From positions 27,999 to 91,998 of the forward strand of contig JAMPER010000002.1 of the NCBI GenBank assembly GCA_023664945.1: DNA of 64,000 bases. The letters are read 5' to 3'. Positions 3,042 through 64,000 of this stretch are shown here, in pieces (the stretch's first letter is position 1; each line of letters begins with the position of its first letter). The notes under the pieces are model-generated. The model searched no databases and was not told the origin of the DNA. It was given only the letters and a program-made list of their open reading frames with translations. The translations under genes and the position numbers were made by a program. The stretch comes from Alistipes senegalensis. GTDB taxonomy: Bacteria; Pseudomonadota; Gammaproteobacteria; Burkholderiales; Burkholderiaceae_D.

Positions 3042-3773
3042 TTAGCGTTTCCGGAAAATGAGGTCCCAGACGCCGTGGCCAAGCCGCCGGCCGCGTTTTT
3101 CAAATTTGGTTTCCGGGCGGTAGGCCGGACGGGGGGCATAGCCTGCCGCTGTATTGGCCAAAAGGGGTTCTGCCGTCAGCACTTCCAGCATTTGTTCCGC
3201 ATAGGGTTCCCAGTCGGTTGCGCAGTGAAGGTAGCCGCCGGGTTTCAGGCGGCCTGCAAGCTGCCTGACAAAGGGCGCCTGGATCAGGCGCCTTTTATTA
3301 TGGCGCGCCTTGTGCCAGGGATCGGGGAAGAAGACATGGATGCCGGAGAGGGTGTTTTCCGGGATCATGTGGGTAATCACTTCCACGGCATCATACCGGA
3401 TGATACGGACATGGCGAAGCTGCTGTGCTTCAATCAGCTTGAGCAGGCTGCCTACGCCGGGCGCATGGACTTCGATGCCCAGGAAGTTTTTTTCCGGCAT
3501 CATTTCGGCAATTTTGGCGGTGGTATCGCCCATGCCGAAACCGATTTCCAGGATGGTTTCTGCCTCGCGGCCGAATGCTTTGGCCAGATCCAGCGGCGCT
3601 TTTTCAAAGGGGATGCCGTACAGCGGGGTCAATTCACAGAGCGCACGTTCCTGCGCAGGGGAAAGCCGCCCGGCACGGATAACGAAGCTGCGGATGCGTT
3701 TTTCCGACGGATCATATAAAAGCGGTTTTTCCGGCTTCTTGGCCGGGATGGTTTCAGGCAGGCTGTCAGGCAT
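3042..3773 (-). CDS. trmB: tRNA (guanine-N7-)-methyltransferase
   Basis: SAM-dependent enzyme that makes m7G46 in the variable loop of tRNAs. The 243-residue product has the class I methyltransferase motif [13 protein letters not shown], the motif [16 protein letters not shown] that is diagnostic of TrmB, and the late [11 protein letters not shown] segment. The reading frame runs further upstream without a stop, but that extension passes straight through the tRNA-Gly gene. The start is therefore the ATG at 3773 ([13 protein letters not shown]). It lies 39 bases downstream of the tRNA on the same strand, so the enzyme may be co-transcribed with a tRNA; that link is an inference. Confidence 0.93.
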
Positions 3774-3812
3774 AAAACAGGCAGGCGGCAATGTGTGGAA
3801 GAAGGAGGGGAA

Positions 3813-3978: not shown

Positions 3979-5046
3979 CTAGAAGTTGTGCGTCATGCCG
4001 ATCTGGATACCGGTGACGGATTCTCTGGCTGTGCCGTTGTTGTTATAGACACTGCCTACTTCTTCGTTGTCGCTGTCGGTGTAGGAAAGTACGCCGTAAA
4101 TCGCAGTGCGTTTGGAGAGGTTATAGGTGTAACCGATAGCGTATTTATTGACGTCGCCGTCTTTGCCATCGTGCCAGTTGTCAATGCTGGCGCGGTTATA
4201 GGCGAGCTGGAAGGTGCCCGGGCCAATATCGCAGGTCAGTCCCACCATCCATTCCTGCTGGTCCATTGCTGAAAAGAAATCAGCATCATCACCTGTCCGC
4301 AAGGAGAGTTTTTGTTCCTTGAATTTGCTGGTTTGCCAGCCTGCCGTAATTCTTGCCGGGCCAAAGGCATAGCCGCCGCCAATGTTGAAGACCCAGGAAT
4401 CATTGGAGTCGGCCAGGCGGGCATAGTTGGCCATTAAGGCCAGCGGGCCGTTGTCGTAGTGCAGGGAGCCGGCGAAGCCGTAATTGGTTTTGTCTTCTTC
4501 ACGGGAAAGATTATGGTCGTCTTCTGACAGGGTGAAGCTGGCAGATACGCCGAAGCCCTTGTATTCCGGGCTGTCGTAGCGGACGGTGTTGCTGATTTGC
4601 TCGGAATGGAGACGGTTGTACAGGGCAAGCGAAGCGCCGGTTGAACCTTGTTCAAACGGGTCCAGGGTAGAGAAATATTCAAATGAGATTTCCGAAATAC
4701 GTCCAAAGCGGACTTTACCCCAGTCGCTTTCCAGTCCCAGGTTGGCCGCACCCAGCCAGTCGGCTGTTTCCTGTTCTTTTAAGCGGTCGCCCATGTAGGT
4801 TTCCAGGGCTGTGCCGTCATTTAATGCAAATTGTTTTTCCAGCTCGAAAGTTGCCTTCAGTCCGCCCCCCAGGTCTTCGTATCCCCGAAAACCGATCAGG
4901 TTGGTGGCGTTTTCGCCCATGCGGGTGTCGCTGCCGGTTTCTTTGATATAGCCGGTATCAACGGTGCCATAAATCTGGATGTGGCTTTGTGCCTGGGCTG
5001 CGCCTGCCATAGCGCCCAGCACAGCCAGAACCAATATTTTTTTCAT
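3979..5046 (-). CDS. Outer-membrane general porin (Gram-negative porin, Burkholderiales type)
   Basis: 355-residue trimeric 16-strand beta-barrel porin for diffusion of small hydrophilic solutes through the outer membrane. The signal peptide MKKILVLAVLGAMAGAAQAQ is followed by the mature start SHIQIYGTVDTGYIKE, as in the OmpC/Porin_4 family. The barrel contains DLGGGLKATFELEKQF and WLGAANLGLESDWGKVRFGR, and the chain ends in the C-terminal aromatic signature (THNF) used for BAM recognition. A longer frame exists, but the ATG at 5046 starts the signal peptide. It is a single-gene unit with its own terminator. A paralogue lies at 53898-54995. Confidence 0.92.
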   Translation of the reverse strand: MKKILVLAVLGAMAGAAQAQSHIQIYGTVDTGYIKETGSDTRMGENATNLIGFRGYEDLGGGLKATFELEKQFALNDGTALETYMGDRLKEQETADWLGAANLGLESDWGKVRFGRISEISFEYFSTLDPFEQGSTGASLALYNRLHSEQISNTVRYDSPEYKGFGVSASFTLSEDDHNLSREEDKTNYGFAGSLHYDNGPLALMANYARLADSNDSWVFNIGGGYAFGPARITAGWQTSKFKEQKLSLRTGDDADFFSAMDQQEWMVGLTCDIGPGTFQLAYNRASIDNWHDGKDGDVNKYAIGYTYNLSKRTAIYGVLSYTDSDNEEVGSVYNNNGTARESVTGIQIGMTHNF

Positions 5047-5152
5047 AATCAAAATCCAGTTAATAAATTGGTGAAAGAATGCTGAGTTGATTCGGTTCAA
5101 ACAGCTGCCTGACATATTACCGTGCTGTTCCATAAATGCAAATAAGAATTGC

Positions 5153-5180
5153 TCTTTTTTACAAAATGCTGTAAAAAAGA
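5153..5180. repeat. Perfect 11-bp inverted repeat upstream of the porin gene
   Basis: Arms TCTTTTTTACA (5153-5163) and TGTAAAAAAGA (5170-5180) are exact reverse complements around a 6-base spacer. A second small dyad, GACA...TGTC, follows at 5179-5192. The element lies about 107 bases upstream of the porin start and 60 bases past the GGDEF-EAL stop on the same strand. It could be an AT-rich terminator-like hairpin for the sensor gene or an operator for the porin. Confidence 0.55.
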
Positions 5181-5239
5181 CACATTTTTGTCAGTGTTGC
5201 TGCGGTCGAGAGTTTTACGATGAGAGCGGGTTTGTTTGT

Positions 5240-7654
5240 TTATTCTTGTGGGCAGCGGTTTTTTACGTAGAATTCGGCAAACTGGCCGGCGGTCAGCGGT
5301 TTGCTGAACCAGTAACCCTGAATGATATGGCAGCCCATTTCCATGAGCATGTTGTACTGACCCGGCGTTTCAATGCCTTCGGCAATGACCTGGTAATTGA
5401 GGCCCTGCGCCATGCTGATGATGGCATTGATGATGGCGCGGTTGCTGGTGTTGCTTTCCATATCTCTGACGAAGGCCTGGTCTATTTTGATGGTGTCGAT
5501 CGGGAATTTTTGCAGGTAGGCCAGGCTTGAGTATCCGGTGCCGAAATCATCCAGGCTGACTTTGGAACCCATTTTTTTCAATTTATGGATGATGTTCTGG
5601 CTTTGGGTAATGTTTTTCATCAGGATGGATTCGGTCAGTTCCAGATCCAGCATGTCAGGAGAGATGTCATGACATGCAATGGTGCGCTGGATGAGTTCGG
5701 GGAGGTCATCCTGGAACTGGATGGCGGAAAGGTTGACAGCAACGGAAGGGGATCTGCCGAAGTTTTTGCGCCATTCTCCTGCCTGCCGGCAAGCCTCGTT
5801 TAATATCCATTCGCCCAGGCGTTTGATGAAGCCGGAATGTTCTGCGATGGGGATAAAGGTTGCGGGCGAAATGATGCCGTGTACGGGATGGTTCCAGCGG
5901 ATGAGCGCCTCGCAACTGACGATGCCTTTTTTCGCATAGCAGTATTGGGGCTGATAAACGAGGAAGAACTCGTTGTTTTCAAGGGCGTGTTCCATATCGT
6001 TTTCCAGCGATTTGCGCATAAGCAGTTCGGTGGACATCTGGGAACGGTAGAAGGAATAGTTGTTGCGGCCGTTTTGCTTGACGAAATAAAGCGCGGTGTC
6101 GGCGTGGCGCATCAACAGGGAGGCGGTATCGCCATGATCGGGGAAAAGGACGATGCCGACGCTGACGGACAGCGTGAGCATAATTTTGTTCTGGAGGTAG
6201 AAGGGCTGCTGGCTGTTGACCATCAAAGCCTTGGCCAGTCCGGCGACATCATCCTGCGCGTGGGTATCGTCAAGCAGGATAATAAAGTCATCGCCGGCAT
6301 GGCGGATAATGATATCGGTTTCCCTGATGACGGATTTGATACGGCCGGAGAGCTGCTGCAATACCTCGTCGCCGATTTCATGGCCGAAGCTGTCGTTAAT
6401 ATCCTTAAAGAGGTCGATATCCATAAACAGGATGGCGAAGTTGGTATGGCGCAGTTTTGCCTGGCTGATTTTTTGGTCGATAAGCGGGATGAGCATGGAG
6501 CGGTTGTAGAAGCCGGTCAGCGCATCGCGGGAAATCAGCTGCCGGATATGCATTTGGTTCTGGGCGCGGCGGTAGCGGATGTAATAGTTCAGGCAGCAAC
6601 CTCCCAGGATGATGATGAATCCGGCCAGGAGCAGGAGGAAGAAATAGACGATGGTTTGCTGGATGGTTTCCTGCTGTGACGGTCTTTTGAAGGTTGTCAT
6701 CAGCGTGAGGTCGGGGTTTTTGAGCTGTGCTGCGAAGACGTAATAGGGTGTGTATTCCCCGTTGATCATGTAAAGGGAATCGGAGGAATCTGTTTTTTTG
6801 TGGAAGGAGAGTTCTTCAAATTTGGTTTTTTTGTAGCGCAGCTGGCGTTCTTCCGCGGAGAGTTTATAGACGGTGGAGTCCGGCAGGCGTTTGAGCAGGT
6901 ATGAGGGGTTTGATGCGTAGATGATGACGCCGTAGCGATCCACAAGAAGACCTGTGGTCTTGCTCAGCCACTGGTACAGGTAGGTCAGACTGATTTTGGC
7001 TGTCACGGCGCCGATAACCTGGTTATTAATCAGTATCGGCGAGGAAAAGTAAAGGCCTGGCTGGGGAATAAAGTAACCGCTTGAATACTCTACGGCAGAG
7101 CGGTTCCTGGATGTTTCACGGTAGTGCCCGTAAGGGCTGAAGTTTTTGCCGAGAATGCTTTGCTCGGTTCCGGCATTGCTGGCGGCAATGCAAAACCCAT
7201 GTTCTTCTGTTACCCAGAGTGCGCTGATTGTGCCAATTATTTCAACTGTTTTTTCCAGCATCCGGCTGTTTGCCCGCAATTCGGAGTGGCTGAGAATGTG
7301 CCTGATAATTTCTTTTTCAGGGCGCGTAATCATGTCTTTGCCGTGGTTGCGATGGCGCAGGATTGATTCCTGTATATCGACGTTCTGGCTTAAGATGGCG
7401 GGTATGGCCTGCATGAGGGAGAAGGCTTCGTTGATTCTTTTTTGCAGGTCATCGGTAGTGGTTTGAGCCAGTTCCTGCGTTTCGAGATAGGTTTGCTCGT
7501 TTTGCCAGGAGTGGTAGGCATCTGCGATGAGCCAGGATCCGGCGGCCCAGAAGAGGAGGAGGACGATGCCGGCAATGAGGATGGCGCGGATGGAGGGGTA
7601 GGAAGGGTACAGGCTGGAATCTTCCTGGATGTTTTGTGCTTGAAGGTTTGCCAT
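5240..7654 (-). CDS. Membrane-bound sensor with GGDEF and EAL domains (cyclic-di-GMP turnover)
   Basis: 804-residue inner-membrane protein predicted to sense a periplasmic signal and change c-di-GMP. Order: an N-terminal TM helix (about residues 25-48), a periplasmic Cache-like region (about 50-330), a second TM helix (about 336-360), a GGDEF domain (about 375-530) and an EAL domain (about 550-800). The GGDEF signature reads AGDDF (453-457) instead of GGDEF, so cyclase activity is uncertain. The phosphodiesterase side looks intact: EAL at 582-584, NLSAIQFQ, ELTESILMK, DDFGTGYSSLAYL, KIDQAFVRDM and AEGIETPGQ. It is therefore more likely a net c-di-GMP phosphodiesterase. With a flagellar cluster in the same window, motility/biofilm control is a natural role, but that is inference. 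Confidence 0.92.
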   Translation of the reverse strand: MANLQAQNIQEDSSLYPSYPSIRAILIAGIVLLLFWAAGSWLIADAYHSWQNEQTYLETQELAQTTTDDLQKRINEAFSLMQAIPAILSQNVDIQESILRHRNHGKDMITRPEKEIIRHILSHSELRANSRMLEKTVEIIGTISALWVTEEHGFCIAASNAGTEQSILGKNFSPYGHYRETSRNRSAVEYSSGYFIPQPGLYFSSPILINNQVIGAVTAKISLTYLYQWLSKTTGLLVDRYGVIIYASNPSYLLKRLPDSTVYKLSAEERQLRYKKTKFEELSFHKKTDSSDSLYMINGEYTPYYVFAAQLKNPDLTLMTTFKRPSQQETIQQTIVYFFLLLLAGFIIILGGCCLNYYIRYRRAQNQMHIRQLISRDALTGFYNRSMLIPLIDQKISQAKLRHTNFAILFMDIDLFKDINDSFGHEIGDEVLQQLSGRIKSVIRETDIIIRHAGDDFIILLDDTHAQDDVAGLAKALMVNSQQPFYLQNKIMLTLSVSVGIVLFPDHGDTASLLMRHADTALYFVKQNGRNNYSFYRSQMSTELLMRKSLENDMEHALENNEFFLVYQPQYCYAKKGIVSCEALIRWNHPVHGIISPATFIPIAEHSGFIKRLGEWILNEACRQAGEWRKNFGRSPSVAVNLSAIQFQDDLPELIQRTIACHDISPDMLDLELTESILMKNITQSQNIIHKLKKMGSKVSLDDFGTGYSSLAYLQKFPIDTIKIDQAFVRDMESNTSNRAIINAIISMAQGLNYQVIAEGIETPGQYNMLMEMGCHIIQGYWFSKPLTAGQFAEFYVKNRCPQE

Positions 7655-7802
7655 GGCACAACAAGAAAACGCAATAAAAGTACTTATTTATTGGGCAGCG
7701 GCATCAGCTGGAAAGGTGTTCATGTCCAAAACATTGCCAAAATAATAACACTTTTTTTTTTTTCTGCATAGTTTTGCTTTGCAGCAGGAAAAATTCCCGG
7801 AT

Positions 7803-7838
7803 AAAAATATCCCCGCCGCCCACATAGCACGGGGATAT
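7803..7838 (-). terminator. Rho-independent terminator of the 7875-8324 gene
   Basis: On the minus strand, a 9-bp stem (arms 7807-7815 and 7830-7838, 14-base loop) is followed by TTTTAT. It lies 37 bases past the stop codon of the unknown two-repeat protein. Confidence 0.7.
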
Positions 7839-7874
7839 GGACAAGGGTTCAGGATGGCAGGAACTCTTTGTTTT

Positions 7875-8324
7875 TCAGCTGCCTTGCTGAGGAAGGAACT
7901 CTGAAAGCGAGGCGGTAACCCGCGTTTTGACGGTCTCGTTAAGTTCCAGCATACCGGATATGGCCTGAAAGTCTGCCAGCATGGCCTGGGCCATTCCGTG
8001 ATCGGATTTTATGAGATGGCGTAAAAGCAGTGTCTGGATGATAGCACCGGCCATGATTTCGTTGGAGAGGATGCGAAACGGCTCGTTTTCCCGGTTGGTT
8101 TTTGGCATGCCTTCCAGTGTTTTTTTTACTTCTTCGCCTGCATCCGGCGGGATGGACAACATGCCGGACAGGACGCCAAATTCATGTGCCATTTCTTCAA
8201 TTGCGCCGGGGAATTTCCGGTTCAGGTAGCTTAGGATGAGCGTTTGCTTTAGGCTGGCGGACAGCATGGATTCCCAGACAGGCGCAAGCGCATTGGTTCC
8301 TTTTGGCTTATCTGCCTCACTCAT
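7875..8324 (-). CDS. Unknown cytoplasmic helical protein with two internal repeats
   Basis: I do not recognise this 149-residue protein. It has no signal peptide or TM helix and looks wholly alpha-helical. It contains an internal duplication: residues 22-70 (SASLKQTLILSYLNRKFPG..) align with residues 92-140 (AGAIIQTLLLRHLIKSDHG..). Shared positions include QTL.L..L, a central helix and SGML followed by an acidic turn and a last helix. The start ATG at 8324 has a good AAAGGAG ribosome-binding site. It is a monocistronic minus-strand gene with its own terminator, divergent from the rhodanese gene. Function unknown. Confidence 0.75.
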   Translation of the reverse strand: MSEADKPKGTNALAPVWESMLSASLKQTLILSYLNRKFPGAIEEMAHEFGVLSGMLSIPPDAGEEVKKTLEGMPKTNRENEPFRILSNEIMAGAIIQTLLLRHLIKSDHGMAQAMLADFQAISGMLELNETVKTRVTASLSEFLPQQGS

Positions 8325-8458
8325 GTTTTTCTCCTTTGGCTATTTTCCTGTTGGATAATCCGGCAATATAACATGAAGTGCCCTTGCCGGGAAAAGCTGT
8401 ATCCGCAGGCAGGCATCGGGCGTGGTAAAATAAACCGGTATTTTTTCCATGGTGCGAT

Positions 8459-8866
8459 ATGAAAACCGGTGTGGGATACAGACAGCTGCTTGATGAAGCG
8501 GAGAAGCATATTGTTTCGCTGGAAGCTGAGGAAGCGATTGCCAAATTGGGGGAGGAGAACGTCCGTTTTATTGACTTGCGGGATATTCGTGAAATTGAGC
8601 GGGAGGGCGTTATTCCCGGCGCTTTCCATTGCCCGCGGGGGATGCTTGAATTCTGGCTTGATCCGGAAAGCCCGTATCACAAGCCGGTTTTTTCGGGAAA
8701 ATATTCTTTTATTTTCTATTGTGCCGGCGGCTGGCGTTCCATTTTGGCAACCCGTACGGCACAGATAATGGGGCTGGCCCCTGTGGCGCATATCCGCGGC
8801 GGCTTTTTGGCATGGAAAGAAGCAGGCGGCCCGGTGGCAGACAAGATAGGCCATGATGTGTCATGA
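8459..8866 (+). CDS. Single-domain rhodanese-like sulfurtransferase
   Basis: 135-residue rhodanese-homology protein. The catalytic loop is CAGGWRS with nucleophile Cys88, and the fold markers VRFIDLRDIREIEREGVIPGAFHCPRG and HIRGGFLAWKEAGGP are in place. It has no signal peptide, so it is cytoplasmic. It would carry a persulfide on Cys88 and pass sulfur to an acceptor. The next + strand genes (9338-10986) are SufC/SufB-like iron-sulfur assembly proteins. A role as sulfur donor to that pair is tempting, but 470 bases separate them and the link is unproven. Confidence 0.85.
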   Translation: MKTGVGYRQLLDEAEKHIVSLEAEEAIAKLGEENVRFIDLRDIREIEREGVIPGAFHCPRGMLEFWLDPESPYHKPVFSGKYSFIFYCAGGWRSILATRTAQIMGLAPVAHIRGGFLAWKEAGGPVADKIGHDVS

Positions 8867-9337
8867 CCAGGGAGGTTGCGCCGCGTTGGCTGGCTGCTTT
8901 CGCAGGCGCTAAAGTTTGGCTGCCGAAAAGGCCCTGTTTTGCTGTGCATGCGGATAAGGCAGGCATGTGCGGGGTTTTACCCTTTGCCTTGCAGCGGTAT
9001 CCGGCGCATTATTTTTTCCGGTATTCTTTTTAGGAATGATGTTTTGATGTTAATTACCTATTTACATAGTAGGTTAATGGGTGTAATGTCTGTGCCAGGT
9101 TATTTGCCAAAGAACCGGTAATTTTTATGGCAGCAAACAGTTTGTCTGTGATGCCTGTCTTATGCTGATGAGGGAAAACGGATTTCCCAAGGCAGGAAAA
9201 AGCGGTGAGTTGCACGCGGGAAGGCCGGAAAGGGTAAGATACTGCCCGGCTGTGCGTCCTGTTGTGAGCGGGCAAGGCGTTTTGCCTGTTGATGTTCGAT
9301 AATGGGGGCAAGACAGGGCTGGATGAGAGGAATAGGT
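8867..9337. other. 470-base intergenic stretch with a palindromic site
   Basis: No convincing gene: the open frames here lack ribosome-binding sites and protein-like composition. The notable element is an imperfect dyad, TTACCTA (9054-9060) and TAGGTTA (9070-9076) with a 9-base spacer, in an AT-rich patch about 260 bases upstream of the SufC-like start. It could be a regulator site or part of a promoter. Confidence 0.4.
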
Positions 9338-10069
9338 ATGCTGGTGCTTGAAGATATTACGGTTTCTATTACGGATGAAAACCGCCAGTCCAGGAAGATT
9401 CTGGACGGGGTCAGTTTTGAAGTGGAGCCGGACAGCTTTTTTGTGATTACCGGTCCGAATGGCGGGGGAAAATCCACGCTGGCGCGGGTTATCATGGGGA
9501 TTCATCGGCCAGATTCCGGCAGGGTGATATTTGACGGGCGGGATATTACAGGCCTGGATGTGACGGCGCGCGCCAGGCTTGGGATTGGCTTTGCTTTTCA
9601 GCAGCCGGTATCGTTCAAGGGGCTGACGGTTCAGGATTTGCTGTCGCTGGCGTCCGGCAGGCCGCTGACGGTGGAGGAAACCTGTGCCTGCCTTTCGGAG
9701 GTGGGGATGTGCGCGCGTGAATATACAACGCGGGAACTGAACGGCACGCTTTCGGGCGGCGAGAAGAAGCGGGTTGAGATTGCCATGCTGATGGCACGCG
9801 GCGCACGGCTTTCTGTTTTTGACGAGCCGGAGGCCGGTATTGATTTGTGGAGTTACCAGAATCTGATCCAGGTGTTTAACCGGATAAGAAAGGCCCGCAA
9901 GGGCGCTGCTGTGATTATTTCCCATCAGGAGCGGATTTTGGGCATAGCCGACAAGGTTGCTGTGATTGAACAGGGCAGGCTGACCCATATCGGCAAACGG
10001 GAAGCGGTGCTGCCGGCGCTGGGTATGACAACCCGCCCTTGCGGTATGACTGTGGAGGGTGTGCGATGA
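9338..10069 (+). CDS. SufC-like ABC ATPase for Fe-S cluster assembly
   Basis: 243-residue soluble ABC-type ATPase. It has Walker A GPNGGGKS (39-46), Q-loop AFQQP near 86-90, signature LSGGE (138-142), and Walker B SVFDEPEAGID (159-169) with catalytic Glu163. The FDEPEAGIDLWSYQNL segment is characteristic of SufC rather than of transport ATPases. The start ATG 9338 follows GAGAGGAATAGGT; an upstream in-frame start has no such site. The next gene overlaps by 4 bases (ATGA) and encodes a SufB/SufD homologue, so the two form a complex-encoding pair. No SufS, SufE, SufU, SufD or SufA lies nearby. Confidence 0.85.
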   Translation: MLVLEDITVSITDENRQSRKILDGVSFEVEPDSFFVITGPNGGGKSTLARVIMGIHRPDSGRVIFDGRDITGLDVTARARLGIGFAFQQPVSFKGLTVQDLLSLASGRPLTVEETCACLSEVGMCAREYTTRELNGTLSGGEKKRVEIAMLMARGARLSVFDEPEAGIDLWSYQNLIQVFNRIRKARKGAAVIISHQERILGIADKVAVIEQGRLTHIGKREAVLPALGMTTRPCGMTVEGVR

Positions 10070-10986
10070 AACCGGTTATCAGCGAAGTGTTGTACAAGGT
10101 GTCCGGCATTACCGGCAAGCCTTCGGGGGCATTTAATATTCGGGTGAATGGGAAAAGTATCGGCAGGGCTGATTCTGCCAATGTGACTATTGTGCCGAAG
10201 GAAGACGGCAGCGGGATGGCAATTTATGTGAAACCGGGCACAAAGGGGGAAACGGTTCATATTCCGGTGGCGATTGATGTTACCGGCATGACGGATATTG
10301 TTACCAATGATTTTTATGTCGGCGAGGGCTGCGAGGATATCCTGTTTGTTGCCGGATGCGGGATTCACAACAGCGGATGCAGCGAAAGCCGCCATGACGG
10401 TATCCATCATTTCCATATCGGCAAACAGTCCAGGGTGGCTTACCGGGAAAAGCATTATGCCAGCGGCGGGGCAGAGGGACGCAGTATTATCAATCCGGTG
10501 ACGGTGGTTCATCTGGAGCAGGGTAGCGTTTTTGATATGGAAAGTATCCAGACAGAGGGGGTGGATGCTACGCACCGCGTGACGCGGGGCGAGCTGGCAG
10601 CAGACAGTTATCTGGCTATTACGGAAAAGCTGATGACCAGCGGCAGGCAATTGGCGAGGACGGAGTTTGTTCTGGATATAACAGGAGACCACGCCAGGGC
10701 CAGGGTGGCTTCCCGCTCGGTTGCGCGGGATTATTCCCGGCAGGAGTTTGTTTCACGCATTACCGGAAGCAGCGCCTGCACGGGCCATTCCGAATGTGAC
10801 GCTATTATTATGGATAAGGCGGTGGTGAGTGCCACGCCGGAAATTTTGGCCAATCATGTGGATGCTTCCTTGATTCACGAGGCGTCTATCGGGCGGATTG
10901 CCGGCGAACAGCTTGTGAAACTGATGACGCTGGGGCTGACGCAGGAAGAGGCGGAATCGCGTATTATTGATGGGTTTCTCAGGTAG
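10066..10986 (+). CDS. Short SufB/SufD-family Fe-S scaffold protein
   Basis: 306-residue member of the SufB/SufD beta-helix family, clearly shorter than the E. coli SufB of about 495 residues because the N-terminal region is missing. The conserved C-terminal core is present: SECDAII with Cys244, IHEAS with His271-Glu272, and the final LTQEEAESRIIDGFLR helix. By alignment from memory these correspond to the SufB cysteine and the His/Glu that support cluster building. A Cys/His-rich stretch, GCGIHNSGCSESRHDGIHHF (97-116), may hold metal. The start overlaps the sufC-like stop (ATGA). The pair resembles the two-component SufBC-like ('SMS') systems described as ancestral. The substrate cluster is unknown. 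Confidence 0.82.
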   Translation: MKPVISEVLYKVSGITGKPSGAFNIRVNGKSIGRADSANVTIVPKEDGSGMAIYVKPGTKGETVHIPVAIDVTGMTDIVTNDFYVGEGCEDILFVAGCGIHNSGCSESRHDGIHHFHIGKQSRVAYREKHYASGGAEGRSIINPVTVVHLEQGSVFDMESIQTEGVDATHRVTRGELAADSYLAITEKLMTSGRQLARTEFVLDITGDHARARVASRSVARDYSRQEFVSRITGSSACTGHSECDAIIMDKAVVSATPEILANHVDASLIHEASIGRIAGEQLVKLMTLGLTQEEAESRIIDGFLR

Positions 10987-11013
10987 GGACAGATGGTATG
11001 GCGCACTATCTGT

Positions 11014-12387
11014 CTAGTGTGTGTCTGTTTTTTGTTGCCGCACGAAGAAAAAGGTTCGCCAGCAAATAAGCGCTGCGGCAAGCACAGCCAGGCAAAACAG
11101 CCAGATGGTTATACCGCCGCCGGCCATGACAAGCGGCACGGCAAGGGATGTCCATAATCCCCCTCCCATGACGGGTTCATGCAGGAGCTGTTTGTAGCCG
11201 AATGCCTGTGCGGCAACGGTTTTGTTTTCCGGATCAACGGTTCTCAGCAGCATCAGGCCGGTGGCGGTGACGCCCATAGCCTGGCCGAATTCGGCCAGGG
11301 AGCGTTCAAACCAGGCTTCGCTGAAGATGTGCGGCCCGATGAAAATGATGATCAGCAGGTTCCAGGCGATGCCGGCCAGAACCAGTATGAGGAGCGGCAG
11401 CCAGTAGGCGGCGACAAATTCCAGCCGGATGGAGGCAATGGCTGCGACAACCAGGAAATCAAGCGCTGCACCGGTAATGCGATTCATTTGGCCGCTGTCT
11501 GCCAAGAAATCTGCGCCGGTTTTTTTCAGGAAAAGCTGGAGCAGCAGGCCGCCGATCATGCACATGGGGAAAAGCGGCAGGCTTTGCATGATGTGCATGT
11601 CTGCCATTGCGGCCGGGGCAAAACTTTCTGCCTGGACCAGCAGTGTTTTGATGCCGCAGCCGATCAGGATGGCAAGGCCTGTCAGGGCAAGGTGCAGTCC
11701 CAGCGAATCCATGACGTCAGGCGAGACGGTCTGCCTGCCTGACGGGGGCTGCGATTCCGGCGGGTGGATGCCTTTTTGTTCTGCCAGGGTCATATCGTTA
11801 AAGGTTCGGATATGCCGGATAAAGCCTTTTCGTACGCCGATATTGACCATGACCATGCCGATCAGGATGCCGAGTACCATGCCGCAGGTGGCAACGGTAT
11901 AACCCAGGTCAACGCCGGCAGGCCAGCCCAGTTCGCGGAAGGTTTGGGACAGGCCGCCTACGGTGCCGTGCCCGCCGGCAAAACCGATTTCGATCAGGTT
12001 GCCGAAAACGGCAGGGGTTCCGAAAAGCGGGCCGAGTAAAAACAGCGCCATGCCCAGGCCGATAACGTATTGTCCCCAGGCCAGGATCTGGCTGAAGCAG
12101 AACTGGGCGCCTGCCAGCCGGCCGATGGTTTTCAGCGCAGGGGGAACAGCGCCGATAAAGAGTCCTGCAAAGATGATGTTGATGAGAAAGCCGGGAAGCT
12201 CTCCGAAGGCAGCGAGCCATTCCGGCGGCAGGCAAGTGCCGCCAAAGCCGGCGATGGCCAGTCCAAGAAATCCGCCGATAACTGATGCCGGCAGGTAAAG
12301 GCGCTGGAGCAGGGGGAAAAAGGAACGGATTGCCATGCCGGCAAGGAGCAGCAGGCAGAGTGCGCAGAAAGACAGAATGGCAGCCAT
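11014..12387 (-). CDS. gltS: Sodium/glutamate symporter (GltS family)
   Basis: 457-residue polytopic inner-membrane protein with about 10-12 hydrophobic segments arranged as two similar halves, typical of the ESS/GltS family. Recognisable segments are LPASVIGGFLGLAI, GFAGGHGTVGGLSQTFRELGW (the first pore-loop-like region) and GQAMGVTATGLMLLRTVDP (its counterpart in the second half). It is predicted to import glutamate with Na+. It is longer than E. coli GltS (about 400 residues), mainly through a hydrophilic linker between the halves. It converges on the SufB-like gene; a GACAGAT/ATCTGTC hairpin (10988-11014) lies at the junction but lacks a T-run. Confidence 0.87.
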   Translation of the reverse strand: MAAILSFCALCLLLLAGMAIRSFFPLLQRLYLPASVIGGFLGLAIAGFGGTCLPPEWLAAFGELPGFLINIIFAGLFIGAVPPALKTIGRLAGAQFCFSQILAWGQYVIGLGMALFLLGPLFGTPAVFGNLIEIGFAGGHGTVGGLSQTFRELGWPAGVDLGYTVATCGMVLGILIGMVMVNIGVRKGFIRHIRTFNDMTLAEQKGIHPPESQPPSGRQTVSPDVMDSLGLHLALTGLAILIGCGIKTLLVQAESFAPAAMADMHIMQSLPLFPMCMIGGLLLQLFLKKTGADFLADSGQMNRITGAALDFLVVAAIASIRLEFVAAYWLPLLILVLAGIAWNLLIIIFIGPHIFSEAWFERSLAEFGQAMGVTATGLMLLRTVDPENKTVAAQAFGYKQLLHEPVMGGGLWTSLAVPLVMAGGGITIWLFCLAVLAAALICWRTFFFVRQQKTDTH

Positions 12388-12560
12388 AAAAATGTGTTGT
12401 ATCCTGGCAATCCGGATGAAGACGGAAATTTGAAACAGGAAGATACTAGCGTATGCTGCCTCTGTTGTCAGCGGAGATGAAAGAGCGGGTTTGTTTTAGG
12501 GCAAAGGCCGCTCTTGCCATTGGCGGTGTTACCCGCCAACGGCAAGATGCGAAGGGATGA

Positions 12561-13588
<1,028 letters not shown>

Positions 13589-13717
13589 TCATGCCTGTTT
13601 GATCAGGCGTGCGAGGTTTGTGTGTTTGTTACTATAGGAGAGGCGAAAGGCGGCAGCCAGATACAATGCTTTCCCAATATTGCCTGATTCTCCCGATATG
13701 CCGGCTGGCAGGCCGGG

Positions 13718-14428
13718 TTACCGGTATTCCGGGTTTGTCCGGTAACGGTCGGCATTACCGGCAGAAAGTGTTTCGTCAGGCGTATAGGCAGCCTGTATTT
13801 GTTTGAGTTCTTCTTCGGTGATGTATTCAAAAATTTTGACGACGCGCATGACGCCGGGGACGGTGCTGGCTGCTTTTGCCGCAGCGCAGCCTTCCCGTTC
13901 GGTCAGGCGGCCCATCAGGTAAACTGTACCGCGCTCGGTGACGGTTTTCCGGGAGTTGGAATACAGCCCTTCTGTATTCAGAAAGCGTGCGGTTACCTGC
14001 GCCGTAATCAGTGAGTCGCGCGAGCGGGAATCCAGGCTGGAAGGCGCTTCAATTGCCAGTTCATTGATAATGCCACGGATGTTGGGGATGCCGGCTATGG
14101 CAATTTCTACTTTAAGGCGCGTCTCGTCATCGGGCACTTCCCCGGTAATGAGTACCAGGCGGTTAAAGCTGGCTACGTTGATGTGCCCTGATTCACCGGC
14201 AATTTCCGAGGCCGCAGATTCGCCCTTAAGGCTGATGGTGCGATCTTCAATCTGGGAGCCGACTGTCCGTCTGTCGGTGACGATCAGCGCGCCCGTTACC
14301 CCGCTGCGGGCGATCATAAGCGGCATACACCCCTGAAGTGCTGCCGCGGCGGCCAGGCAGAAAAACAGCAACCCGAAACGCCGCAGGCAGCCGGGCGCTG
14401 CCTGATGCGACTTTGTAAACAGCATCAT
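13718..14428 (-). CDS. dolP: BON-domain outer-membrane lipoprotein, DolP/YraP-like
   Basis: 236-residue lipoprotein. The N-terminus is a signal with a lipobox ending LQGC, then comes MPLMIARSGVTGALIVTDRRTVGSQIEDR, the DolP/YraP signature. Two BON domains follow (about residues 68-135 and 145-212): FNRLVLITGEVPDDETRLKVE and KTVTERGTVYLMGRLTEREG. DolP binds anionic phospholipid at the inner face of the outer membrane and supports envelope integrity and division. The C-terminal 20-25 residues are polar. In many proteobacteria it follows yraN/diaA; that context is absent here. Confidence 0.88.
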   Translation of the reverse strand: MMLFTKSHQAAPGCLRRFGLLFFCLAAAAALQGCMPLMIARSGVTGALIVTDRRTVGSQIEDRTISLKGESAASEIAGESGHINVASFNRLVLITGEVPDDETRLKVEIAIAGIPNIRGIINELAIEAPSSLDSRSRDSLITAQVTARFLNTEGLYSNSRKTVTERGTVYLMGRLTEREGCAAAKAASTVPGVMRVVKIFEYITEEELKQIQAAYTPDETLSAGNADRYRTNPEYR

Positions 14429-58953: not shown

Positions 58954-59019
58954 GTGTGCCAGGCAGGACGACAGATTGGCGTAAACAGGTTGTCAATGGG
59001 AAAAGGGATGTTGTTTCGG

Positions 59020-59136
59020 ATGGGAATAAGACGGAAGCAGACGTTTTTTCTGCGTTGTCTGGCTGCGCTGGCGTGCCTGTTTTTGCCGGCAGTTTTTCAT
59101 GTTGTGGCGGCAGAGACGGTTTTGGGCAGGGTGTAG
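59020..59136 (+). pseudogene. Signal-peptide fragment cut at the edge of the mobile region
   Basis: 38 codons: MGIRRKQTFFLRCLAALACL and on, a good Sec signal peptide, then ...VVAAETVLGRV and an immediate stop at 59134-59136. The mature part is absent. ETV.GRV directly after a signal peptide recalls the start of staphylococcal-nuclease-like proteins, but eight residues are too few to be sure. The stop coincides with the beginning of the repeat/integrase region, so the gene was probably truncated when the element entered. Confidence 0.4.
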
Positions 59137-59140
59137 CGGC

Positions 59141-59224
59141 GCGCGATAAATTAAAGCGTTACGCGCAATAAACCACCTGCCCAATCATTTGCACAGACTG
59201 CAAAACAATTACACTAGCTGCAAA
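59141..59224 (+). repeat. Leader repeats of integrase copy B (candidate attachment/regulatory region)
   Basis: Three elements. GCGCGATAAA (59141-59150) and GCGCAATAAA (59163-59172) form 10-bp direct repeats 22 bases apart. Then, 20 bases after the 9-bp site (59163-59171, TTATTGCGC on the other strand), comes the 33-bp block 59192-59224 with two CAC...CTGCAAA repeats of 20-bp period. The layout and spacing match copies A and C. Confidence 0.6.
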
Positions 59225-59267
59225 CGCATGGTGAAATATCCCTGTACAAAAACGACAGGAGACACCC

Positions 59268-60167
59268 ATGCTCACCCAAATCCTTACCCGGATCGCCCCT
59301 GGTCTTACCCTCATTGCCGACTGGTGCGGTGAATTTGAAAAGCTCATTGCCCTACGGCATCTATATCCCAAAACAGTCAACAAACGCAAAGGTAATCTTG
59401 CACATCTAAAGCACGCTATCGGGCATATCCGTATCGGTGCTGTTAGGCCATTACACATTGCAGAAGCGGTACATCGAATATGGCTATCGGGACGGCAGAA
59501 TACTGCCCGGCGCGTTTTGCTTGAGGCCAGGGAATGTTTTGCTGAAGCCGTGGCTGCCGGTTTGATTGGTTCTAATCCGGCTGTGTCTATTAAGCCTCTG
59601 CCTGTACAGATACGCCGCCAACGGATGAAATTGGAAGAGTGGCAGGCACTTTATGATGAATCCCTAAAGACTGAACCCGCATGGGTCAGCAGGATGCTGT
59701 TGCTGGCGCTGGTTACTGGACAACGTCGGGCTGATTTGCAAAAGATGGCTTTTGCTGATGTTAGAGACAATCATTTGTTTATTGAGCAGCAAAAAACAGG
59801 TGAACGGGTTGCTTTGCCTTTGAAACTCAAGTTAAAGCCTATCGGTATATCTCTTGGACAGGTTATTAGGTCTTGCAGGGATTATGCTGCTCACGGTAAA
59901 ACCTTCCTGCGGAAGGATAACGGTCAGCCGCTTTGCCTTAACTATATGACGGCCAGGTTCCGCCATTTGTTTGTGCGGGTGCTTGACCGTAGTGATACGG
60001 GGTACAGGCCAACGCTACATGAGTGCCGGTCTTTGTCGGAACGACTTTACCGTGAACAAGGTATCAATACGCAAGTTCTGCTGGGTCACAGAAGTCAGGC
60101 TATGACGGACAAATATAATGATATGCGCGGGCTTGACAGGGAGAGGTTCAGGTTTTTGGTGGTGTAA
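59268..60167 (+). CDS. Tyrosine recombinase (phage-integrase family), copy B
   Basis: 299-residue site-specific recombinase with all catalytic residues: Arg153 (TGQRRADL), Lys176 (EQQKTGER), His251 and Arg254 (LHECRSL), His274 (LLGHRS) and nucleophile Tyr283 (TDKYND). The N-terminal SAM-like core-binding domain is residues 20-100. It lacks a clear separate arm-binding domain at the very N-terminus beyond MLTQILTRIAPGLTLIADWC. The ATG has ACAGGAGACACCC upstream. It reads inward from the left edge of the mobile region, opposite to its close relative at 62962-63861. An excisionase gene is not seen. Confidence 0.93.
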   Translation: MLTQILTRIAPGLTLIADWCGEFEKLIALRHLYPKTVNKRKGNLAHLKHAIGHIRIGAVRPLHIAEAVHRIWLSGRQNTARRVLLEARECFAEAVAAGLIGSNPAVSIKPLPVQIRRQRMKLEEWQALYDESLKTEPAWVSRMLLLALVTGQRRADLQKMAFADVRDNHLFIEQQKTGERVALPLKLKLKPIGISLGQVIRSCRDYAAHGKTFLRKDNGQPLCLNYMTARFRHLFVRVLDRSDTGYRPTLHECRSLSERLYREQGINTQVLLGHRSQAMTDKYNDMRGLDRERFRFLVV

Positions 60168-60172
60168 ATTAC

Positions 60173-60196
60173 AAACCTCGCCTCGGCGGGGTTTTC
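60173..60196 (+). terminator. Terminator after integrase copy B
   Basis: 10-bp stem AAACCTCGCC/GGCGGGGTTT (60173-60182 with 60185-60194), tiny loop, T-rich end. Confidence 0.7.
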
Positions 60197-60271
60197 TAAA
60201 CTGCTATCCGGCGAACGCGTTCCGAAAGCATTAGCTATGCTGATGGCAGGTTCTATTCTACACTGGCCTGA

Positions 60272-61018
60272 TCAGTCTTCTGGTTCAATGATTGAACGGC
60301 GTATTGTCATTTTAAGTTTTGTCTCATCTAATATGCCACTTTTACCAAAGTAATATATAAGGGAACAGGCAATAGAACTTATTGCTGTAAACCACACACA
60401 AAGCCAAAAGTCAGAACAGGCCTCTTCAAAATAAGGGAAACAGGACACACTGTACTTTTCATAACAGGCATATAAATCGAAACAATTATTCTTGTCGGCA
60501 AAATCAAACTTAAACCAAGCATAAACAAGGAGCGAGCCACATACAACTAGCATGAACCAGCAAACGAGCAAATTTATTTTCGATACAGACATTGCCGCAG
60601 GCCTTGTCAATGGGTTACCTTTATAATTCCTTTGCTTAAATAGTACCGTCTTGTAGAGCGGTCCAGTAATATTATTTTCTAACTGATCGACATGATATTC
60701 CCAGTTTTCTTGCCAGTGTTTACTGCCTTTATTAACGAATATCCATGCAAAACATAAAACGAACGCAATACAGGACAAAATTACGGATGCTGCGGCATGC
60801 TTTTGATTTATCGTGAAGCCAAAGCTACCTAAGATGAGTGTGATCAATGTCCAAAAATATGCTGTTCTCCTCCAATAGAGGTTAATCTCGAATTTTCGAA
60901 TATCAAGCGCATACTTAAGAGCAAGCTTGTTTTTCTCACGACTACACCACCCAAGGATGTTGCGCACCTGAAAGGCTTCGTTATATTTTTCTTGATCTGA
61001 CAGTTGTTTTTTGCTCAT
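60272..61018 (-). CDS. RipA-like polytopic membrane protein
   Basis: 248-residue inner-membrane protein. A soluble N-terminal part (YNEAFQVRNILGWCSREKNKLALKYALDIRKFEINLYWRR) is followed by two TM helices (about 53-70 and 77-95). A conserved-looking cytoplasmic loop WQENWEYHVDQLENNITGPLYKTVL comes next, then two more TM helices (about 150-170 and 204-222). The pattern resembles the RipA family of octameric membrane proteins, judged from memory of WExHxDxLE...GPLYK. The role in a mobile element is unknown. DNA is visibly AT-richer than chromosomal neighbours. It lies on the minus strand, facing integrase B. Confidence 0.6.
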   Translation of the reverse strand: MSKKQLSDQEKYNEAFQVRNILGWCSREKNKLALKYALDIRKFEINLYWRRTAYFWTLITLILGSFGFTINQKHAAASVILSCIAFVLCFAWIFVNKGSKHWQENWEYHVDQLENNITGPLYKTVLFKQRNYKGNPLTRPAAMSVSKINLLVCWFMLVVCGSLLVYAWFKFDFADKNNCFDLYACYEKYSVSCFPYFEEACSDFWLCVWFTAISSIACSLIYYFGKSGILDETKLKMTIRRSIIEPED

Positions 61019-61094
61019 TCTGCTTTAATCCAGTAGCATCCATTCTAAACATGTCCAGTTTACCTCATTCACCAGTCAAAGTAGTGCGTTTTGC

Positions 61095-61625
61095 TTGGAG
61101 GATGACTTACATACCAAACTGGCGAACGCACTCAAAAACATTAGCAGCTTGCCAGTTGCCTTCATGACCATGTGGCCCTCAGCCACCTTACCCGCCGACG
61201 GCAAATGGATGGAGCGAAACGGCGATATCCTGACCATAGCCGACTATCCAGACCTCTTTGCCATCCTAGGAAACCTCTACGGGGGGAATGGCACCACCAC
61301 ATTCGCCTTGCCCGATGACAGAGGGCTTGTTGAGCGCGGCTGGGATCATGGGCGCGGATATGACAGCGCTCGCACATTCGGCTCCGAACAGGGGGATGCG
61401 ATAAGAAACATCATAGGTGGTGTGCCCTTTCTGACGCTTTCTAGGGTCAATGCCGCCGAGGGCGCTTTCTACTGGGCACATCCTAACGTGACGGGCGCAT
61501 ATCAAAATACGTCGGGATATGGATCCGATAACCTGATATTCGATGCTTCCAGAGTAGTCCCAACTGCTCCAGAAAACCGGATGAAAAACCGAGCCTATCT
61601 TCCAATTATTAAAGTCTTGCCATAG
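61095..61625 (+). pseudogene. Phage tail-collar/fibre tip cassette 1 (no start codon)
   Basis: The frame is open from 61029 with no ATG or GTG; the first usable codon is TTG 61095. It encodes a collar-type domain (TMWPSATLPADGKWMERNG, then DLFAILGNLYGGNGTTTFALPDDRGLVERGWDHGRG) and a variable tip ending ENRMKNRAYLPIIKVLP. The front is nearly identical to cassette 2, while the tip between differs. Normal tail-fibre genes are far longer and have baseplate-binding N-termini, so this is a 3' cassette rather than a full gene. Its TAG is directly next to the stop of cassette 2, tail to tail. Confidence 0.75.
61221..61381 (+). repeat. 161-bp inverted repeat, left arm
   Basis: Identical, base for base, to the reverse complement of 61876-62036. 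It lies inside the collar domain of cassette 1. High similarity continues outward to about 61131, with scattered differences. Confidence 0.95.
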
Positions 61626-62174
61626 TCACGGCAAAACCTTGATGATAGGGAGGTATGCGCGATTACGCATCCTGAATTCTGGCGCGGTATCAACCACATT
61701 TTTGTTTGAGAAAGAAATGTAATTAACGTTGCCGTTACCGCTTCCATATGCGCCGACATTGAAATGATTAAAAATTTTCCCACCAAAACATCCGGAAAAA
61801 CCACTCCCTCCTGTTCCGGTGAGTAAGTGGTCAATATATCCACTTAATTCCCTTGTTGCATCTTGTTGTTCACTACCGAATGTGCGAGCGCTGTCATATC
61901 CGCGCCCATGATCCCAGCCGCGCTCAACAAGCCCTCTGTCATCGGGCAAGGCGAATGTGGTGGTGCCATTCCCCCCGTAGAGGTTTCCTAGGATGGCAAA
62001 GAGGTCTGGATAGTCGGCTATGGTCAGGATATCGCCATTGCGTTCCATCCATTTTCCGTCGGCGGGTAAGGTGGCTGAGGGCCACATGGTCAAAAAGCCA
62101 ACTGGCAAGGTACTGAAGTTTTTGAGTGCGCTCGCCAGTTTTGCAGGCGTTATTCCACAAAGTTGACGATGCAA
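61626..62174 (-). pseudogene. Phage tail-collar/fibre tip cassette 2 (no start codon)
   Basis: Mirror partner of cassette 1. The minus-strand frame opens at 62177 just after a stop, and its first possible start is TTG 62174. The shared front (KLASALKNFSTLPVGFLTMWPS, then the same collar sequence) is followed by a different tip (DATRELSGYIDHLLTGTGGS..) and the shared end EFRMRNRAYLPIIKVLP. The tips diverge right after the common TFGSEQ. It looks like an alternative receptor-binding end, silent in its present position. Confidence 0.75.
61876..62036 (-). repeat. 161-bp inverted repeat, right arm
   Basis: Exact inverted copy of 61221-61381, 494 bases away. Between the arms are the two unlike tips. 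Homologous or site-specific recombination across the arms would invert the tips. Confidence 0.95.
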
Positions 62175-62223
62175 ATGTCAGAGTAACTTAAAATAGAAAG
62201 AATCTGACCAATGAAAATTCAAA

Positions 62224-62916
62224 ATGAGCTATACAGTGCCGGAATTCACTAAAAAAGCATTTCGCTGCCCGTTTTGTAATGCCTTTGCACAAATGAATTG
62301 GCATACATATTTTCGTGATCAGCACCCTTGGGTTCGCGATCATCCCTCTTCTTTTGTTGCTGAAGCCATATGTCAGGTGTGCAAGAAAGCATCTGTTTGG
62401 CTCGCCGAGCTTAGTTCCCCTACAGCAGACTCAACACAGGATAAATACACAGGTCAAATGATCTATCCAGCTGCATCATCAGCACCAATGCCCCACCCAG
62501 ATCTACCCGAAGACTGCAAAACAGACTACATGGAAGCGCGCAACATCGTAAACCATTCTCCGCGAGGTGCCGCTGCATTGCTTCGTCTGGTTCTTCAGAA
62601 ACTATGTAACCATTTTGGCAGTCCAGAGAAATCCATTAACGATAATATTGCCGAGATGGTAAACCGGGGACTTCCTGAATCCTTAAGAAAAATGTTTGAT
62701 TTTGTCAGGTTGACTGGAAACGAAGCGGTTCACCCTGGAGAAATGAATCTACAGGATTCCCCTAAACTGGTTCACAGCATGTTTTCGTTCATCAATATGA
62801 TTGCCGAGAAAATGATAGCGGAACCTCGCCAGGTAGATGAAATGTACAAAAAACTGCCAGAAGGCAAACGGAAGGTTGCTGATAATCGTGACGGCCGAAA
62901 TCCCTCCGAAGGTTAA
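62224..62916 (+). CDS. DUF4145-type protein
   Basis: 230-residue soluble protein. An N-terminal zinc-binding part has CPFC (Cys15, Cys18) and CQVC (Cys50, Cys53) with FAQMNWHTYF between. The C-terminal helical part carries DYMEARNIVNHSPRGAAALLRLVLQKLCNHFG, INDNIAEMVNRGLPESLRKMFDFVRLTGNEAVHPGEMNL, the DUF4145 signature. Such domains occur alone or fused in restriction and other defence loci, so an accessory or defence role is possible; no partner nuclease is seen here. The start ATG 62224 has only a weak ribosome-binding site. Confidence 0.78.
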   Translation: MSYTVPEFTKKAFRCPFCNAFAQMNWHTYFRDQHPWVRDHPSSFVAEAICQVCKKASVWLAELSSPTADSTQDKYTGQMIYPAASSAPMPHPDLPEDCKTDYMEARNIVNHSPRGAAALLRLVLQKLCNHFGSPEKSINDNIAEMVNRGLPESLRKMFDFVRLTGNEAVHPGEMNLQDSPKLVHSMFSFINMIAEKMIAEPRQVDEMYKKLPEGKRKVADNRDGRNPSEG

Positions 62917-62961
62917 ATGCAACCGAATAAACACACTGCCCAGCCTCGGCAGGTATTCTCC

Positions 62962-63861
62962 CTACACCGCCAAAAACCTGAACCTATCCCTGTCAAGCCC
63001 GCGCATATCGTTATATTGATCCGTCATAGCCTGACTTCTGTGACCCAGCAGAATTTGTGTATTGATACCTTGTTCACGGTAAAGCCGTTCAGACAAAGAC
63101 CGGCACTCATGCAGCGTTGGCCGGTAGCCCGAATCAGAACGGTCAAGCACCCGGACAAACAAATGGCGGAATCGGGCTGTCATATAATTTGTGCAAAGCG
63201 GTTGCCCGTTATCCTTTCTCAGTAAGGTCTTACCGGGAGCAACATAATCCCGGCAGGATTTTATGACTTGCCCCAGCGTCACGTTTACAGGCTTCAATCT
63301 AAGCTTCAGCGGCAGCGCAATCCGTTCCCCCGTCTTCTGTTGCTCAATAAACAAATGATTGTCTCTCACATCTGCAAAAGCCATCTTTTGCAAATCAGCC
63401 CGACGTTGTCCAGTAACCAGCGCCAGCAACAGCATTTTGCTTACCCATGCAGGTTCAGATTTCAGGGATTCCTCATACAAAGCTTGCAATTCCTCCAGCC
63501 GCATCCGCTGGCGGCGTATCTTTACCGGCAGAGGTTTGATTGCTATTGCCGGGTTTGTTGTAATTAGCCCGGCAGACACGGCTTCGGCAAAAAGCTCCCT
63601 GGCCTCCAGAAGGACACGTCTAGCCGTATTCTGACGGCCAGATTGCCATAACTGATGCACCGCTTCTGCAATATGAATGGGTCGGATTGCCCCCAGCCGC
63701 AGTTGACCGATAGCGCGTTTCAGATGGGCTAGGTTTCCCTTGCGTTTGTTGATGGTTTTTGGGTGAAGGGATCGCAGGGAAATGAGTTTTTCAAATTCAG
63801 CACACCAGTCAGAAACGAGGGTAAGACTAGGGGCAAGACGGGCAAGGATTTGGGTGAGCAT
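62962..63861 (-). CDS. Tyrosine recombinase (phage-integrase family), copy C
   Basis: 299-residue homologue of copy B, aligned without gaps, roughly four residues in five identical by eye. Catalytic Arg153, Lys176, His251, Arg254, His274 and Tyr283 are all kept (TGQRRADL, EQQKTGER, LHECRSL, LLGHRSQAMTDQY). It reads leftward from the right edge, so the two recombinases point at each other across the cargo. Its leader is nearly identical to that of the remnant at 33049. It ends 45 bases from the DUF4145 gene, convergent with it. The repeated presence suggests an actively spreading family. Confidence 0.93.
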   Translation of the reverse strand: MLTQILARLAPSLTLVSDWCAEFEKLISLRSLHPKTINKRKGNLAHLKRAIGQLRLGAIRPIHIAEAVHQLWQSGRQNTARRVLLEARELFAEAVSAGLITTNPAIAIKPLPVKIRRQRMRLEELQALYEESLKSEPAWVSKMLLLALVTGQRRADLQKMAFADVRDNHLFIEQQKTGERIALPLKLRLKPVNVTLGQVIKSCRDYVAPGKTLLRKDNGQPLCTNYMTARFRHLFVRVLDRSDSGYRPTLHECRSLSERLYREQGINTQILLGHRSQAMTDQYNDMRGLDRDRFRFLAV

Positions 63862-63910
63862 GATGCAAGGTCTCCTATGTGGTTGGGATGGAGTCTTTGT
63901 ATCATTGGGT

Positions 63911-63972
63911 TTTGCAGCAGGTGAAATTGTCTTGCAGAGAGTGAAAGTAGAAATATTTCCGGCTAATCGTGC
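63911..63972 (-). repeat. Leader block and 9-bp site of integrase copy C
   Basis: 33-bp block 63911-63943 (two CAC...CTGCAA repeats of 20-bp period when read toward the gene). Then 20 bases, then TAATCGTGC at 63964-63972. It corresponds position by position to copies A and B. The window ends 28 bases later, so the flank cannot be judged. Confidence 0.55.
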
Positions 63973-64000
63973 CTGAGGCCTTACAATATGGTATGAGTCC

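Follow-up and report, generated by a model that had tools for sequence, protein, structure and literature searches.

How do two tail-fiber tips, neither with a fiber attached, come to lie facing each other in a bacterial genome, and could they still be of use? We analyzed a stretch of 64,000 nucleotides (nt), here called the window (GenBank assembly GCA_023664945.1, contig JAMPER010000002.1, forward-strand positions 27,999 to 91,998), which carries near its right end two opposed fragments of phage tail-fiber genes. Each consists of a collar domain followed by a tip. The window's own genome (G000) comprises 1.93 Mb in 16 contigs, and the window reaches to the very end of contig C9; the genomes used for comparison included G006 (same genus, Oxalobacter), G137, and G073. 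On balance, we favor the reading that the fragments are a prophage-derived pair of silent tips whose collars recombine and that are possibly still tip donors.

The tip pair and its collar repeat

The features of the pair are the following.

61095 to 61625, + strand: tip cassette 1, collar plus variable tip, start-less (frame, profile, and alignment evidence)
61626 to 62174, − strand: tip cassette 2, collar plus a different tip, start-less (frame, profile, and alignment evidence)
61221 to 61381, + strand: perfect inverted-repeat arm 1, 161 base pairs (bp) (repeat comparison)
61876 to 62036, − strand: perfect inverted-repeat arm 2, 161 bp (repeat comparison)

As a previous reading of this DNA from its letters (here, the sequence-only reading) had described, the two frames meet tail to tail at neighboring stop codons, TAG at 61623 to 61625 (+) and TGA at 61626 to 61628 (−). 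That reading had named decayed cassettes in relatives as one sign of a plain prophage remnant; both frames of the window are open, over 176 codons (tip 1) and 182 codons (tip 2). It had also called them start-less, and TTG is indeed the sole kind of first codon in both, and the fiber N terminus is missing from both. Fiber-gene homology of cassette 1 starts at about 61116 to 61119. Both proteins contain the Pfam Collar domain (PF07484; E values, 1.2e-17 and 1.6e-17) and match PHROGs tail-fiber families across collar and tip. The two tips are unlike each other, and their terminal residues are alike. The constant-variable-constant layout noted previously is therefore real, and it recurs in three of the relatives described below (the L040 fiber, the L040 spare tip, and a frame in G137). 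The window pair thus has alternative tips in opposite orientation on a common constant part, as expected of an invertible segment.

The flawless inverted repeat reported for the cassette fronts is exactly 161 bp long and is the longest perfect inverted match (61221 to 61381 with 61876 to 62036). It lies within wider arms (61116 to 61405 and 61852 to 62141) of 290 nt with 92% identity, separated by 446 nt; within these arms, 266 bp can be aligned at 95.5%. Cassettes 1 and 2 differ at 12 positions in the 102 bp directly 5′ of the perfect tract and at none in its 161 bp, for which the probability at the rate of the adjoining 102 bp is about 2e-9. The tract is not invariant, because it differs at 16 sites from its counterpart in the fiber gene of a relative (L041 in G006). 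The contrast of 0/161 with 12/102 differences is the signature of exchange within the constant part, and a recent duplication would give the same mark. By this sequence comparison, the collars were exchanged or copied recently.

Related fiber loci and a probable recipient

Tip 1 was matched in 6 of the 13 Oxalobacter genomes searched. A locus in G006 (L040) contains a fiber gene of 266 amino acids with a collar domain (7388 to 8188, −), which adjoins baseplate- and tail-type genes (named by eye) and is followed directly by a start-less tip on the opposite strand (7111 to 7383, +). The two stop codons, 7384 to 7386 and 7388 to 7390, are one base apart, and the letters at the junction are nearly identical to those in the window. 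Past the spare tip are a gene for a tail assembly chaperone (PF16778) and then Dam-like and lysis-type genes (the latter two named by eye). One tip is attached to a start-bearing N-terminal part in L040 and neither is in the window. Because the start-less tip here faces a full-length gene across an equivalent junction, the tail-to-tail join appears to be typical of such fiber loci. The second G006 fiber gene, L041, has a complete N terminus and a collar with 87 to 90% DNA identity to those of the window; its tip is cut by the contig end. The C-terminal residues NRAYLPII(K/R)VLP are common to tip 1, tip 2, the L040 fiber, the L040 spare tip, and the G137 collar frame; these five sequences have a common collar (or its end) and different tips.

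A separate opposite copy of a collar or tip was found in 3 of the 51 loci checked: the window, L040, and, as a weak 26-bp match, L072. Seven others gave only self-palindromes and the remainder gave nothing, although 29 of the loci with no match were stretches of less than 3.6 kb, in which a miss is weak evidence. One locus in G073 (L045, G073:C1:1570000-1588000) has several collar-containing fiber-like genes in a row at about 4900 to 14300, with repeated stretches of 170 to 245 bp, and is a multicopy fiber locus of another Oxalobacter. In G137 (L042, G137:C72:1-9000), a stand-alone collar frame (2018 to 2536) is followed by a tail-chaperone-like gene.

The sequence-only reading had supposed that a recipient for the tips might be elsewhere in the genome. 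When the N-terminal part of the L041 fiber was used as a query, the window's own genome gave two matches, C8:716,074-716,220 and C8:777,796-777,900, both on the − strand. The first belongs to a fiber gene at about 716.07 to 716.31 kb with an apparent GTG start behind AAGGAG at about 716,310; it runs through the shared linker, ...VAGIARIATAEEAEAWEDDSTIITPAKLA (read from the sequence), and its upstream neighbor encodes a phage tail-collar fiber N-terminal domain (PF12571). The second is a truncated piece. Both stop at exactly 100 N's, at the same collar base (TCGCCAG...), which is the edge of the collar repeat. These are the only runs of N's among the seven loci inspected.

L086 (G000:C8:706000-722000), 9974 to 10073: 100-N run abutting the 716-kb fiber gene
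L046 (G000:C8:774000-786000), 3696 to 3795: 100-N run abutting the 777.8-kb fiber piece

The simplest reading is that the gaps hold further collar copies too alike to assemble. Judged by its start and its linker, the recipient is probably the fiber gene at C8 716 kb. Thus, a start-bearing candidate of the kind sought exists, and the proposition that there is no recipient looks false, but the collar and tip of the candidate fall in its gap: the gene enters the 100 N's where the collar repeat should begin, and its tip is therefore unreadable. A search of the readable genome with tip 1 returned only the two window cassettes, and neither tip was found elsewhere in it. The region after the start-bearing fiber gene includes a frame of 2,147 codons (L087, G000:C8:722001-741000, 7915 to 14358).

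The cassettes would accordingly be the tip end of a prophage tail-fiber locus of the L040 type, with one tip carried by the fiber gene and a second, spare tip without a start codon opposed to it, and the fiber N termini would have been lost in this lineage. The pair is silent in place, because an integrase and its cargo gene abut the 5′ edge of each collar and both tips lack the fiber N terminus. We propose that recombination, between the two collars and probably also with other fiber loci, keeps the collars alike, and that it would allow the pair to serve as a tip donor. Exchange of tips would proceed by homologous recombination, through RecA or a phage RecT, with the collar on one side and the conserved last codons on the other, and its target would be a start-bearing fiber gene such as that at C8 716 kb. 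A gene pair for RecT (6.4e-46) and YqaJ (2.9e-31) is present in a prophage region of the same genome. We infer the use as donor, the contents of the gaps, and the identity of the recombinase. If so, alternative tail-fiber tips may have a route by which to outlive their carrier phage, and a single 1.9-Mb genome would hold a concrete donor and a probable recipient for tip exchange without an adjacent invertase.

Several points weigh against this reading. The likeness of the recipient's collar to the cassettes is indirect, because collar and tip both fall in the gap, and the 100-N runs could in principle be masked letters instead of assembly gaps. The N terminus of the C8 716-kb fiber differs from that of L041. 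No baseplate genes like those of L041 are present, so the cassettes came with a phage that has since been lost or that was a different one. No donation event was seen in the readable genome, and a single gene conversion or a recent duplication accounts for the identical tract without any continuing role.

Flanking modules, locus edges, and alternative readings

The flanks and edges of the tip pair are the following.

59132 to 59267, + strand: left edge, with the end of a host Sel1-repeat gene at about 59131 (where the G006 match ends), a 26-bp palindrome-like word, and the int1 leader
59268 to 60167, + strand: int1, lambda-type tyrosine recombinase, 299 amino acids (PF00589, 2.4e-15; motif residues)
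60209 to 60249, + strand: likeness of about 40 bp to the first part of tip 1, located between int1 and the 8xMP gene (local alignment)
60272 to 61018, − strand: 8xMP (octameric membrane protein family) cargo gene, convergent with int1 (PF24838, 2.3e-32)
62224 to 62916, + strand: DUF4145 gene, homologue of the PD-T7-4 anti-phage protein, convergent with int2 (PF13643, 6.3e-14)
62962 to 63861, − strand: int2, lambda-type tyrosine recombinase, 299 amino acids (PF00589, 1.5e-16; motif residues)
63925 to 64000, no strand: end of window and contig, 76 bp shared with the start of contig C13

Upstream of each cassette there is thus a lambda-type integrase with a convergent cargo gene set directly against the collar's 5′ edge. 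The two integrases are 84% identical to each other, and the integrase is about 36% identical to that of phage 21. Their assignment rests on both the family match and the motif residues R, K, HxxR, GH, and Y, which have catalytic roles in tyrosine recombinases and are present in int1, int2, and the copy at C8:779 kb. The product of the DUF4145 gene, which lies 45 bp from int2, matches the PADLOC profile for PD-T7-4 (5e-80 over residues 2 to 225); the 8xMP protein gave no PADLOC match. A PD-T7-4 homologue also occurs in L042 (6750 to 7430), among baseplate- and tail-type genes in a prophage-like locus.

The genome contains eight matches to this integrase (five partial, one with three stops), and G006 contains one. 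Six of these nine copies retain the 3′ end, and each of the six has a gene or a broken frame opposed to it.

Facing genes: 8xMP; PD-T7-4-like; trypsin-like protease (PF13365; PADLOC RT-Protease, 1e-18)
Facing frames: the C13 frame and the 103-amino-acid L049 frame (the cargo parts of both without a family match); the broken G006 frame

The integrase stop is followed by a short stretch and then by TATTCGG in four of the six copies and TATCCGG in one; the motif is absent in G006. In three of the six, namely, both window modules and the one at C8:777.8 kb, a severed fiber piece lies directly against the cargo on the side away from the integrase. Because the C8:777.8-kb module sits between its fiber piece and a phage lysozyme gene, with another integrase (PF00589) further out, it looks like an accessory insert in a prophage. 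Among 392 genomes of the family, the integrase search matched four, two of them (G000 and G006) at ≥66% identity and the other two at 32 to 36%. These copies make up a small integrase family paired with different single cargo genes, and two of the integrase copies fence the tips. Integrase pieces, one a 5′ part and the other a 3′ part, also stand beside a pyruvate-carboxylase-type gene in both genomes (L008 in G000:C9; L080 in G006:C15).

At the left edge, the Sel1-repeat gene, whole in G006 (contig C8), is broken at about 59,131; about 430 bases are lost, and what is left of the gene picks up again on contig C7, preceded by 54 bp of a different sequence. The insertion is old or has been rearranged. 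The missing stretch of about 430 bp ruled out a clean, site-specific entry of the entire locus into the Sel1 gene; a host repeat as the integrase target was ruled out as well, because the palindrome-like word (59141 to 59166) occurs at three sites genome-wide, and every one of them adjoins a copy of this integrase. At the right edge, 63925 to 64000 matches positions 1 to 76 of C13 (L047) at 94.7% over 76 bp, and since the end of C9 and the start of C13 have these 76 bp in common, the assembly stops in a repeat. Beyond them, a cargo frame on C13 is surrounded by integrase pieces of either orientation.

The flanks bear on whether the tips are simply prophage debris, that is, recent leftovers with no role as donors, the perfect tract being due to a single gene conversion or a recent duplication. 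The absent N terminus, the integrases, cargo genes, and truncated host gene on the flanks, the five partial integrase matches of eight (with three stops in one), and the loss of host sequence all fit debris. The frames themselves do not: both are intact, and over 87 codons compared with L041, synonymous changes predominate (tip 1, 19 of 22; tip 2, 22 of 27). There is also a probable recipient that has the shared linker. We therefore consider debris a serious but rather unlikely explanation.

The window may alternatively be regarded as two facing copies of a small Oxalobacter element, an integrase with a one-gene slot at its 3′ end, in which the integrase would move cargo genes and fiber tips together through a recombination site at the slot and tip edge; anti-phage cargo would then be tied to receptor-binding diversity. 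The 40-bp likeness at 60209 to 60249, whose score was reached by none of 1,000 shuffles and which had no counterpart at three other loci tested, may be a decayed second tip start, which would place the cargo between two tip starts. Only the int1 cargo has a direct repeat at its two ends; int2, L046, and G006:C15 were no different from shuffles. A motif common to the three cargo/fiber edges was not significant (shuffle P of 0.07, 0.13, and 0.81). We regard this element as improbable.

The sequence-only reading saw the geometry of an invertible or donor cassette. The alternative tips on a common collar and the spare-tip layout stand; an active switch at this site, driven by a serine invertase in trans or by int1 and int2, is very improbable. 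It would draw on the long perfect inverted repeat, the motif residues kept in both integrases, and one Resolvase-domain gene at C8:922 kb, and inversion of prophage fiber genes in trans is known, PinQ acting on those of e14 in the portion of PMC12529663 available to us. However, there is no start-bearing part on either side. Both orientations would be silent, because neither cassette has an N terminus, and a local inversion would merely swap which tip faces which module. No invertase gene lies beside the segment, and the single PF00239 match in the genome (C8:922411-922845) is far off; it corresponds to a lone 251-amino-acid Resolvase-domain protein among host-type genes (L082, G000:C8:917000-928000, 5256 to 6011), which may have a role in tip inversion. 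Furthermore, in L040, which has the same join, the two tips have no more than about 41 bp at 90% in common, and inspection by eye of the surrounding 15 kb revealed no recombinase. Contig C31 of G006 encodes a Resolvase-domain protein of the same open-frame length as that in L082.

Misjoining of two loci at a collapsed repeat is the least credible explanation. In its favor, the assembly failed at the collar in two further spots, the window terminates in a repeat, and short reads may not have fixed which way round the inner 0.5 kb between the 161-bp repeats lies. Against it, another species has this join with almost identical junction letters, the tips differ, and both frames are open.

Comparison with known systems

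Phage records held no DNA similar to window positions 59,000 to 64,000, and the protein relatives found there for this region (201 records for tip 1, 117 for int2) were all less than 60% identical. In IMG/VR, no integrase relative was found, nor any exact match to a 32-base collar word; 20 of its loci encode a relative of the tip protein, with best segments at most 49% identical. Prophages found by PHASTER are listed in the consulted part of an Oxalobacter genome paper (PMC9812493). Literature searches returned nothing on orphan opposite-strand fiber tips, by which we do not claim absence from print; nothing on point by title, among the papers listed, for tip inversion or silent cassettes; and, for tyrosine recombinases with a single anti-phage cargo gene, one listed paper, on integrons. 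PD-T7-4 has been described with an integrase (Vassallo et al. 2022, PMC9519451, in the section seen). As a point of likeness, the homologue here is convergent with int2. In contrast, the two genes lie 45 bp apart without overlap, and elsewhere this integrase is opposed by other genes.

The Mu G segment and the e14 P segment also carry alternative tips in opposite orientation on a common constant part. In the e14 segment, according to the same excerpt of PMC12529663, inversion takes place within two opposite genes at 16-bp repeats, whereas the repeat here is 290 nt; the Mu-type phage SfMu has 34-bp repeats and Gin, as far as the partial source goes, whereas no invertase gene was found beside the repeat here. 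In contrast to the Mu and e14 segments, neither cassette has a start-bearing part.

Lambda acquires side-tail-fiber DNA from the defective prophages Qin and Rac, with mean identities of 96% and 88% and longest perfect stretches of 115 and 49 bp, respectively (De Paepe et al. 2014, PMC3945230, in the extracts consulted). To judge from these extracts, the present case is alike in having fiber DNA of a defective prophage, perfect stretches of the right length, and a RecT-type gene in the genome. It differs in that the donor is start-less, the collar of the recipient is unread, and donation is inferred. In Pectobacterium, tailocin fiber loci undergo genus-wide homologous exchange, including loci without an invertase gene (PMC13195805, in part); there, whole expressed fiber loci are exchanged, whereas here the tips are silent and lie in a prophage remnant. 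The tail-fiber tip locus is thus of a known kind, and a pair of tips that are both start-less, inside an inverted integrase-cargo pair, is a variant of it.
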